From assembly GCA_009786045.1 (NCBI GenBank), contig WQTY01000041.1:1-10174 (forward strand): DNA of 10,174 nucleotides. The letters are read 5' to 3'. This stretch comes from Pseudomonadota bacterium (lineage in GTDB: Bacteria > Myxococcota_A > Bradymonadia > UBA4248). Position 1 is the stretch's first letter; the number at the start of each line of letters is the position of its first letter. This document shows, in pieces, positions 5,388-8,313 of the stretch. The notes under the pieces were generated by a model, which ran no database searches, was not told the DNA's origin, and saw only the letters and a program-made list of their open reading frames with translations. Both the position numbers and the translations under genes were made by a program.

Positions 5388-6500
5388 TCAGTCGATATGG
5401 CTGATAATTCGTTTGTGCGTCCAGTCAACCACCAGCACCGCACCGTTATTAATGAATCGGTCCTCACCAATGTGCCGTGAAATGGTTCGAATCACGCCGC
5501 CATGACAAACGACGAGGTGGCGGCCGGGTTTGAGAGATTCGAAAAAGCCCGTTACGCGCTTTGTCGTCTCTTCAACGCTTTCTCCGCCTGGCGCTTCAAA
5601 GGCGTTAAATTGATACAGCGATCTGACCCAATCCTGATCGACGTCTTCAATGCGTTTGCCCTCATAATCACCAAAGAAAATCTCACGCAAAGCCGGCGTA
5701 CGTTCGGGTTCACCACAGGCAAGACGCGCTGTCTCGACAGCTCTGTCAAGGTCAGAAGAATAGACCGAATCAAACTCGACATGTGCGAGTTTTTGACGAA
5801 GTGCCTTTGCCTGTTCAATGCCGACCGGCGTCATTTGTGCATTATGCCAGCCAGACAAAACGCCTGCCGCATTGGCATCTGTCTGTCCATGACGTACAAG
5901 CCAAAGCTCAACGGCCGGCAAACGCATGGGATTGCTGCGCGCTGTCCGTTCCTCATAGCACTGGCAGCACGAGGGCTGATAGAGCTCCTCCGAGCCAAGC
6001 TCGATCTCGTCCCCCGAAACACAGGCGCGGCCATTTCGAAGTTTGATGTTGAAAACCGCCTTTCGATTGCAAAACGCGCACGTCGTCTTGACCTCTTCGA
6101 TGCTGTCGGCAAGCTCCATCAGGCGCTTTGACCCCTCAAAGAGACGGGTCATAAAGTTCGTTCTGAGCCCGTAGCAAATGACCGGGATATTGAGTTCGAC
6201 GGTGATTCTTCGAAGCTGATGGATCACAAACTCACTCAAAAACTGGCACTCATCGACGAGCACGCAATCGATCCCCTTCATCCTGTCGATATCAATGACA
6301 GAATCCTCTGATACACACAAATCGGCCTCACGCTCAAGGCTCGCCCGGGATCGAATGGTCACCGCCCCAAAACGATCATCAAGACTTGGCTTAATGAGCA
6401 CCACGCGTTTGCCCTGTTGTTCGTAGTTATGGGCAACTGCCAGCAGATTGAGCGTCTTGGCGCTTCCGACGGCGCCGTAACGAAAATAGAGTTTTGCCAT
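5388..6500 (-). CDS. Fused type II thymidine kinase / histidine phosphatase
   Basis: Residues 1-186 are a near-complete type II thymidine kinase (thymidine + ATP to dTMP, salvage): P-loop GAVGSAKT (9-16), DECQF with base E84 (83-87), the YGLRTNF segment (110-116), zinc cysteines C141/C144 and C178/C181, and the substrate-loop Y174. Residues 197-370 are a branch-1 histidine phosphatase, resembling CobC/GpmB-type enzymes: LVRHG (201-205, phospho-His H204), SSDLDRA with R253, E273, and CHGG (332-335, H333). All catalytic residues of the second half are present. The linker is only about 10 residues; M192 may be the relic start of a once separate phosphatase, but no ribosome site precedes it. The P-loop has Ala14 where the Walker consensus has Gly. 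The start at 6500 is preceded by GGGTGA. The domains are confidently recognised; the phosphatase substrate is unknown. The kinase half alone would be called tdk. Confidence 0.92.
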   Translation of the reverse strand: MAKLYFRYGAVGSAKTLNLLAVAHNYEQQGKRVVLIKPSLDDRFGAVTIRSRASLEREADLCVSEDSVIDIDRMKGIDCVLVDECQFLSEFVIHQLRRITVELNIPVICYGLRTNFMTRLFEGSKRLMELADSIEEVKTTCAFCNRKAVFNIKLRNGRACVSGDEIELGSEELYQPSCCQCYEERTARSNPMRLPAVELWLVRHGQTDANAAGVLSGWHNAQMTPVGIEQAKALRQKLAHVEFDSVYSSDLDRAVETARLACGEPERTPALREIFFGDYEGKRIEDVDQDWVRSLYQFNAFEAPGGESVEETTKRVTGFFESLKPGRHLVVCHGGVIRTISRHIGEDRFINNGAVLVVDWTHKRIISHID

Positions 6501-6691: not shown

Positions 6692-6738
6692 GGCGTTTGA
6701 GTGGCGCGGCATCGTGCCCGCTGGTTTTGGAGTTCAAA

Positions 6739-8313
6739 ATGTCAGGCAGGCGCGGGTCGCGCGATTTCTTCAGAAAGAAGCGAAACAAGTCATGGCGAGG
6801 TATCACAGCCCTGCTTGTGTTCGGTATTGCCTTTGTGGTTGCGGCCGTTGCGCTTTTCTCAAACAAGTCGGCTGGCATCGAAGAAGCTGCACCGCGGCGA
6901 ATCGCTGCGCATGCATCTTCCGGCATGGATCTTCCTGTCGATGCGCCAAATGACAAGTTACCTTCTGTCGAAAAACCCAAAGAAAATCCAGCGCCCCCGC
7001 CTGCCGTAAAGCGAGCTTCTCTCTCCGAACTCCCTCCCCAGCATGGCGCCATCGCACCAAAACTTGGCAGATTCTATGTTGTTGAACGGGATCTGGCATT
7101 CGATGCCAATGTGAGTTCGGAGGTCATCGCCGCGGCCAAAGCCAAGCCCTATGTCGTGGTCGCGGGAGATATCCTTGGCCGCATCGCGAAGCAGCACGGC
7201 TGCACCATTGAGCAAATCCAAAAAGCCAACCGCCTGACAGGCGATCAAATCAAAATTGGCCAAAAGCTCCTCATTCCCGATTGCCAATCCGGCGAGATTC
7301 AGCCTCTCGTCGAAGCCGCCCCGGCACCCAGTGCACAACGCGGGCGATGGTGGAAAGCTGCAGGTGTCGATACAACGACACTTCCGCGCCTCATGCGCGA
7401 GGAGTCCTTCAAGCCGCCGCAAAGGTTCATGGCGTTTGTCATTGAGTTCACCTTCGATGCTACCCGACAAGTCGTCATACGCGAGCGGGCTTTCGATTAT
7501 CAGGGAACTTCGAGCAAGAGTGAAGGCTGGAATCCGGCTTCTTCGGTAAAGCTTTTTGCGGCCATCACTGCCCTGCGCCGTATTGATGAACTTGGCTTTA
7601 CTTCGCGCGCCAAGGTTACCTTCCATGGCAAACGCCCCTACACCACCACCGTAGGCGCCCTCATCGAAGCCGCCATCATCCAAAGCGACAACATTGCCTA
7701 CAATCGCGTCGTTCAGCTCGCTTCCTTCGACAAACTGCACAGAGAAACCCTCACTTCGCGCTACGGCATCTCGCGCACTGCCCTCAATCGGGGCTACGAA
7801 CTGACACGTTGGAGGGAACTTGGCGAGGATCCTTCGCTGCGCGTCTCACCGGAGATAACCCTGAGCGAGGGTAAGAAAACGACCAAACTGCCTGCTGCCA
7901 AATCCAATGCCCCCGCTGCCTGCAGCGCATCTGCCTGCACGACCCTGCAGGATCTCGGTGAATCCATACGCCGTCTCATGTTGCAGGAGCAGCTCCCGGC
8001 CAGTGAAACTTTCAACCTCAAGCAACAGGATCTGCTCGTCCTGCGCCGTGCCATGCGAAGCGAAGACCGGCAGCGCGGCACGGAGATCGTCGACATTTTC
8101 GCCAAAATTTTTAAAGACTCCCGGGTCAAATTTTACGCAAAACCAGGTTTCTCCGAAGACTGGTTCACGGACAACATCTATATCTTCGACCCGCGCCACA
8201 ACCAGGCCTGGATCGTTGTCATGAGCGGCTACCCAGGACGCCGCTCCCTCGACGACGCCGCCAGAGTCATTGCCAAAATCATCAGCTCGGGCAAGCTCAG
8301 AAACGTCAGATAG
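6739..8313 (+). CDS. Membrane-anchored LysM protein with class A beta-lactamase-like domain
   Basis: Probably acts on or senses peptidoglycan outside the inner membrane. A basic N-terminus and a hydrophobic helix (about 21-40) form an uncleaved anchor, followed by a Pro-rich linker (about 60-105), one LysM peptidoglycan-binding motif (137-180, ending IKIGQKLLIP) and a serine-hydrolase domain of the beta-lactamase/PBP fold (about 225-520). Its active-site motifs are S268-x-x-K271, S316-D-N318 and K468-P-G470. The last replaces the usual KTG/KSG, and I see no clear equivalent of the class A deacylation Glu166. A variable stretch with two cysteines (C395, C400) enlarges the region between SDN and KPG. 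It may therefore be a DD-peptidase-like or purely binding protein rather than a resistance enzyme. I chose the ATG at 6739 (524 aa) because TTGGAG lies at the right spacing; a TTG at 6697 would add 14 residues with no such site. Confidence 0.85.
   Translation: MSGRRGSRDFFRKKRNKSWRGITALLVFGIAFVVAAVALFSNKSAGIEEAAPRRIAAHASSGMDLPVDAPNDKLPSVEKPKENPAPPPAVKRASLSELPPQHGAIAPKLGRFYVVERDLAFDANVSSEVIAAAKAKPYVVVAGDILGRIAKQHGCTIEQIQKANRLTGDQIKIGQKLLIPDCQSGEIQPLVEAAPAPSAQRGRWWKAAGVDTTTLPRLMREESFKPPQRFMAFVIEFTFDATRQVVIRERAFDYQGTSSKSEGWNPASSVKLFAAITALRRIDELGFTSRAKVTFHGKRPYTTTVGALIEAAIIQSDNIAYNRVVQLASFDKLHRETLTSRYGISRTALNRGYELTRWRELGEDPSLRVSPEITLSEGKKTTKLPAAKSNAPAACSASACTTLQDLGESIRRLMLQEQLPASETFNLKQQDLLVLRRAMRSEDRQRGTEIVDIFAKIFKDSRVKFYAKPGFSEDWFTDNIYIFDPRHNQAWIVVMSGYPGRRSLDDAARVIAKIISSGKLRNVR

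Follow-up and report, generated by a model that had tools for sequence, protein, structure and literature searches.

A single uninterrupted reading frame in the DNA analysed here (10,174 nucleotides, the window) encodes a type II thymidine kinase (TK) followed by a branch-1 histidine phosphatase (HP), and this fusion is kept in the host family, f1, which, judged by gene content, seems to be without de novo thymidylate synthesis. Tentatively, we propose that the protein is a bifunctional thymidine-salvage enzyme, in which the kinase makes dTMP and the phosphatase removes dUMP or another deoxynucleoside monophosphate. Both domains belong to known families, and fusions of other kinases with histidine phosphatases, or of other enzymes with CobC-type domains, have been reported; the pairing of TK with HP was not found described. 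A full-text search of the open-licence literature in PMC gave no such fusion, in line with the original remark, which knew of no described enzyme with this architecture.

Architecture and active sites

The gene starts with ATG, lies on the minus strand and has no internal stop (Table 1). All residues that had been predicted from the letters alone are present: the DECQF motif and both zinc cysteine pairs in the kinase, and R203-H204-G205, R253, E273 and a CHGG motif containing H333 in the phosphatase. The protein also passes the NCBIfam model for thymidine kinase (PRK04296.1-5 / NF003300; 200.9 bits, cut-off 195). The phosphatase part begins at residue 197 and combines a match to PF00300 (His_Phos_1) well above cut-off with the RHG, arginine, glutamate and second histidine of branch 1. 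In the best 120 of 4588 homologues, E84, R203, H204, R253, E273 and H333 are conserved throughout, as are the zinc ligands C141, C178 and C181; C144 is found in 118 of these 120. The usual P-loop carries GK[ST], and the fused kinase has Ala at the position of this Gly; since GSAKT is unchanged across 17 aligned fusions, the substitution is a trait of the lineage. A structure predicted from 17 close sequences is confident for HP (block means 80–93) and poor for the linker and the second half of TK.

Table 1. Coordinates of the fusion gene and its parts in the window, and of the genes found downstream of folA in five genomes of the host family (aa, amino acids)
Feature	Position	Strand	Basis or remark
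TK-HP fusion gene, 370 aa + stop	5388..6500	-	kept in host family f1
Type II thymidine kinase domain, aa 3–182	5955..6494	-	PF00265, 133.3 bits (cut-off 20.6); conserved residues
TK P-loop GAVGSAKT; DECQF base E84; zinc Cys pairs C141/C144 and C178/C181	E84: 6249-6251	-	
Inter-domain linker, aa 183–196, 14 residues	5913..5954	-	alignment; length and repeat counts
Branch-1 histidine phosphatase domain, Pfam aa 199–345	5466..5906	-	PF00300, 138.2 bits
HP catalytic residues: H204 (nucleophile); R253; E273; H333	5889-5891; 5742-5744; 5682-5684; 5502-5504	-	
Acidic 258–264-aa genes downstream of folA	L141:2166-2954, L142:2183-2956, L143:2475-3248, L144:3992-4768, L145:2348-3139		

Occurrence and genomic context

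An error of assembly, which the original prediction had named, together with separate genes in close relatives, as a possible refutation, was rejected. The fusion was found again in independent genomes; moreover, among 8000 candidates scored, 4588 had E values of 1e-20 or lower, and the best 120, which were examined for domains, all carry both. The one relative with two separate genes (in genome G004) has a phosphatase that nests within the fused clade (see below). Across 57 related genomes, a whole-length match is present in seven of the eight of the host family, the split G004 included, and the gene is an uninterrupted fusion in six; it spans three genera. The eighth genome of the family, G007 (89% complete), has neither a match to the fusion nor any TK. 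In the phylum, searched with up to five candidates scored per genome, seven of 377 genomes gave a full-length match, all of them from f1. Four loci among the best 80 of 577 relatives in the genome collection span both domains; they stem from MAGs of ruminant digestive tracts labelled only Proteobacteria (cattle colon, water buffalo rectum, goat omasum, roe deer omasum), and one cluster of homologues is named Bradymonadales. A phage or plasmid origin was rejected: matches were obtained in 1718 of 50,697 phage records and in 465 of 72,556 plasmid records, and not one of these reaches 80% coverage of the query.

The gene stands by itself. A convergent gene downstream encodes a Ser/Thr protein kinase, a divergent one upstream (6697-8313) a protein in which a LysM domain is followed by a serine beta-lactamase fold, and among the five proteins scanned in the window none other than TK-HP could be assigned to nucleotide metabolism. 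Six other loci of the family were compared: the LysM gene is again a neighbour of TK-HP in G004, where it is divergent, and in G005, where it follows on the same strand; the Ser/Thr kinase gene is a neighbour in G001, also on the same strand. The neighbours thus recur across f1 in changing order. The window also encodes a protein of 949 residues (88-2937) that has no match in Pfam or NCBIfam.

A few observations were made on relatives of the single domains. A MAG of the Clostridiales carries another fusion of this kinase, in which TK is followed by a GNAT acetyltransferase in one frame of 330 residues (L098:8001-8990). A MAG of the Chlamydiae has a stand-alone HP (L063:10340-10915; 33% identical) and, 1.8 kb away and on the other strand, a stand-alone TK; this proximity is probably due to chance. 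Two MAG contigs labelled Chlamydia trachomatis (L064, L066) carry this type of TK as well; the label looks doubtful.

Descent and divergence of the fused phosphatase

By homology and fold, the fused HP is of CobC-like descent. Its nearest solved structure is TTHB049 of Thermus, to which it is about 40% identical, with a TM of about 0.91 by target length, and its relatives in the Thermaceae (46–49% identity; on two Thermus plasmids and one Allomeiothermus plasmid) sit in cobalamin clusters, where all three adjoin cobT and two have cobU or cobS nearby. The CobC-like activity that had been suggested for the domain thus stands as a matter of resemblance; the corresponding role in the host is not supported, because cobS and cobT are each found in none of the eight f1 genomes, which makes alpha-ribazole phosphatase, the usual CobC role, unlikely there. 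Both genes are likewise absent from three genomes with stand-alone relatives of the HP (G053, G055 and G056), and each occurs in only one of the 57 genomes, G015. There, a different HP follows directly after cobT-cobS (contig C158), and the closer relative of the fused domain is encoded elsewhere (C12), after a MiaB-like gene. Fused HP also differs from TTHB049 and the Thermaceae proteins, which stand alone, in having a tyrosine at position 279 and a long stem of its own.

The 26 fused phosphatases sampled form one clade (100/100, 100% of bootstraps), separate from stand-alone relatives, in a tree that leaves out the CobC proteins of E. coli and G015. In a first tree with E. coli CobC, the latter, on a branch of 3.23, falls inside the fused clade and the fused rows are grouped in 8% of bootstraps; we read this position as long-branch attraction. 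The stem of the fused clade is 1.03 changes per site long, which suggests a functional change with or after fusion. In G004 (L007:1498-2724) a single TAG separates TK from HP, and a new ATG 9 nt on starts the phosphatase. This HP branches within the fused clade (grouped at 98/80 with five other fused rows, inside a group with 100/100), so the two genes arose by a later fission. A comparison of 21 fused with 26 stand-alone rows, one of the latter (G010) being in the wrong frame here and replaced for the trees, shows five positions that differ, none of which indicates a substrate. Y279 of the fused domain is Leu in 24 of the 26 stand-alone rows.

In G003 and G006, the single pair far from synonymous saturation, dN/dS is 0.090 for TK and 0.106 for HP, which shows purifying selection on both domains in this one pair. 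The phosphatase diverges faster: in nine fusions it is 47–64% identical to that of the window, as against 75–80% for the kinase. The linker varies in length: by one measure, that of the window protein has 14 residues, and among 119 proteins measured there are 45 in 55, 69 in 31 and 93 in one, so that 87 linkers are longer than that of the window by 31 to 79 residues. A repeat of 24 residues, NPLRDACVDNGIDDSL.GSDKTND, occurs in one to three copies in the linker of a common sub-lineage (P0031, P0038, P0050, P0069 and relatives), giving proteins of 414, 438 and 462 residues, and resembles a variable-number tandem repeat. Counted strictly, it is present in 0, 1, 2 and 3 copies in 47, 58, 14 and 1 of 120 proteins; a relaxed pattern of 20 residues gives 42, 54, 23 and 1.

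Thymidylate metabolism of the host family

Genes of thymidylate metabolism were searched for in 14 draft genomes, eight of the host family (82–99% complete) and six of other families. Neither known thymidylate synthase was found in f1: thyA (PF00303) is absent from all eight genomes, versus presence in five of the six others, and thyX (PF02511) is absent from all eight as well. In the outgroups, thyX has a strong match in G010, the sole one without thyA, and a weak match (32.6 bits) in G056. It is unlikely that the absence of two genes from eight drafts is due to gaps in the assemblies.

In five outgroups thyA lies just upstream of folA (dihydrofolate reductase, DHFR), with 13–65 nt between the domain matches; folA is retained in all eight f1 genomes, and at six of the f1 folA loci thyA is not among the neighbours scanned. 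Upstream of folA there is an AA_kinase gene in G002, G003 and G006 and an ABC transporter gene in G004; in G001 and G005 the upstream gene matches no Pfam family. The contig of G002 ends immediately after folA; in the other five (G001, G003–G006) an acidic protein of 258–264 residues is encoded downstream (Table 1). These proteins have no significant match in Pfam or NCBIfam, and one that was searched against the PDB had none there; in our judgement they are probably not hidden thymidylate synthases. The DHFR of all eight genomes could hint at an unrecognised thymidylate synthase; folate synthesis alone would explain it too. At the G003 locus, a gene of the PNP_UDP_1 nucleoside phosphorylase superfamily (L142:4825-5505) comes after the AA-kinase gene upstream of folA and is a further candidate for nucleoside salvage.

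In each of the seven f1 genomes that have a TK, the only one found is the fusion gene. A dUTPase is encoded in seven of the eight genomes, being absent only from the host's own, which is 83% complete, and in one of the six others (G008); a pyrimidine nucleoside phosphorylase (PYNP) is encoded in all eight and in five of the six others. The surroundings of the PYNP gene in G006 contain genes for NusA and a metallo-hydrolase, and no deo operon was seen there. The search for a dUMP phosphatase used the YjjG/YfnB model and gave no match above cut-off in any of the 14 genomes, including those with thyA. Weaker HAD matches are present in all eight f1 genomes (best 50.2 bits, cut-off 159.9), so another dUMP phosphatase may exist. 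Gene content, then, provides a setting that a YjjG-like role would fit: no thyA or thyX in eight genomes, dUTPase and TK in seven, PYNP in eight.

A possible role in thymidine salvage

YjjG of E. coli, according to the primary study by Weiss, is reportedly a dUMP phosphatase needed for the utilisation of thymine. It has the HAD fold, is unrelated to histidine phosphatases and is not fused to TK; what it would share with the fused HP is the physiological role proposed here. In thyA-deficient E. coli, dUTP is converted to dUMP, which YjjG turns into deoxyuridine and hence a source of deoxyribose-1-phosphate; thymidine kinase may convert deoxyuridine back to dUMP (PMC3258297). By its gene content, f1 seems to be in this condition for good, having retained dUTPase, the phosphorylase and TK with no recognised YjjG. 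Without ThyA, TK becomes essential, and Mollicutes devoid of thymidylate synthase salvage thymidine via TK, as f1 would; the relevant passages of that account make no mention of a fusion of TK with a phosphatase (PMC7226160).

Following this model, the TK domain of the fusion would phosphorylate thymidine and be the cell's source of dTMP, and the HP, a relative of CobC-type phosphatases of nucleoside 5′-phosphates, would have turned into a deoxynucleoside-5′-monophosphatase, most likely for dUMP. dUTPase would produce dUMP, and so would TK when it acts on deoxyuridine, with no thymidylate synthase to consume it; since thyA and thyX are missing from all eight genomes, it is dUMP, rather than dTMP, that would be most in need of a phosphatase. 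By removing it, the HP would prevent dUTP from entering DNA, and the deoxyuridine formed could be cleaved by the phosphorylase to deoxyribose-1-phosphate, with which thymine would be made into thymidine for the TK next door. Fused HP would in this way replace the YjjG-type step of thymine-requiring E. coli, and a dUMP phosphatase joined to TK would complete a route from thymine and at the same time limit uracil in DNA. Of the substrates originally considered for the phosphatase, "another nucleotide" therefore fits best with the loss of both synthases; that this nucleotide is dUMP, and that the tether brings a benefit, we infer from the genomic setting.

Several points temper this proposal. No feature discerned in the sequence marks dUMP, or any nucleotide, as substrate of the HP. 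Stand-alone relatives of the domain occur in genomes which have thyA (G015, G053, G055, G056), so the ancestral function did not need the loss of thyA. PYNP and dUTPase are found outside f1 as well and the YjjG model fails in all 14 genomes; these findings fit the removal of dUMP and are not specific to it. Further, thyA was lost and the fusion gained in the history of a single lineage, so the two count as one observation. It is conceivable, and on balance rather doubtful, that the tethered HP serves as an error-correcting phosphatase, which destroys dUMP from the kinase or from dUTPase while the kinase makes dTMP, and so keeps uracil from DNA; such an enzyme would be the counterpart, for the nucleotide pool, of editing tRNA synthetases. 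The one species that encodes TK and HP separately (G004) also tempers the proposal of a bifunctional salvage enzyme.

Alternative explanations

A serious alternative, and the strongest of those considered, is that the fusion was fixed by drift or convenience: both enzymes would be active with unrelated functions, HP being a general or some other small-molecule phosphatase that was joined to TK by chance. This is the outcome concluded for the CobC-type domain of the RNase H-CobC fusion MSMEG_4305, judged to have been fixed by drift (PMC7466739). That family (MSMEG_4305 / Rv2228c / SCO2299; NCBIfam NF005567) shares with TK-HP a C-terminal CobC-type HP, a linker of variable length, a restriction to one clade and a partner that is unrelated to the phosphatase and acts in nucleic-acid metabolism; it differs in its N-terminal RNase HI, its occurrence in Actinomycetales and its link to B12 synthesis (PMC7466739), as against f1, in which cobS and cobT are not found. 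The variable linker and the faster divergence of HP relative to TK, also described for MSMEG_4305 (PMC7466739), speak for drift, and so does the species that lives with separate domains; stand-alone relatives of the HP adjoin unrelated genes, for instance a MiaB-like gene in three f4 genomes. We nevertheless consider chance somewhat unlikely: the fusion has been kept across three genera of f1, and the best 120 of 4588 homologues have all retained E84 and the residues of the phosphatase; the fused clade sits on a long stem, which suggests that function changed with or after fusion; and the fusion marks a lineage without a recognised thymidylate synthase, in which TK is expected to be essential.

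Opposition of the two activities had been the first possibility raised for the fusion: in a self-limiting cycle, HP would dephosphorylate dTMP, the product of TK, and the balance of both would set the dTMP level. The model for this is 6-phosphofructo-2-kinase/fructose-2,6-bisphosphatase (PFKFB), a single chain in which a P-loop kinase and, after it, a branch-1 histidine phosphatase act in opposite directions on fructose-2,6-bisphosphate. PFKFB thus pairs the same classes of enzyme, chains of it are among the PDB matches of the fused HP, and control at the TK step might be useful where TK is the sole source of dTMP. The kinase of PFKFB, however, belongs to another family and has another substrate, and nothing indicates that the fused HP reverses the TK reaction. 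For a lineage dependent on salvage, such a cycle would mean wasting ATP on a precursor in short supply, dTTP already exerts feedback inhibition on bacterial type II TKs, and a Pfam scan of all 370 residues found no regulatory domain; a dTMP cycle is therefore improbable.

Product editing in cis is a stricter form of the explanation by dUMP removal. Here, TK would phosphorylate deoxyuridine besides thymidine, and the tethered HP would hydrolyse dUMP before its release and so confer selectivity for thymidine. The genomic evidence is the same as for dUMP removal in general, fusion would place the editing activity where the dUMP arises, and thymidine kinase has been named as one way in which deoxyuridine might become dUMP (PMC3258297). 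We regard product editing as quite improbable: the predicted model, poor as it is for the linker and the second half of TK, gives no evidence of a path between the sites, the 87 of 119 linkers that exceed the window's 14 residues argue against channelling, and the split species has no tether.

Least probable is that the HP acts as a CobC-type alpha-ribazole-5′-phosphate phosphatase in the assembly of the cobalamin nucleotide loop, to which the nearest structure, the clusters of the Thermaceae and a match to TIGR03162 (alpha-ribazole phosphatase) would point; this match, at 113.9 bits, stays below the cut-off of 162.9, cobS and cobT are missing from f1, and the sole genome of the 57 that has them keeps a different HP beside them.

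Implications

The fusion ties a pairing of TK and HP to the metabolic state of a lineage of animal-gut bacteria that have apparently lost both of the known thymidylate synthases. Should the phosphatase be unrelated in function to the kinase, TK-HP would join RNase H-CobC as another example of an enzyme that carries a CobC-type domain along with it. If, as we tentatively propose, it acts on dUMP, the fusion would explain how these bacteria cope with a nucleotide for which they have no use and how they make DNA from free thymine, and there would be a testable reason for having both activities in one chain.
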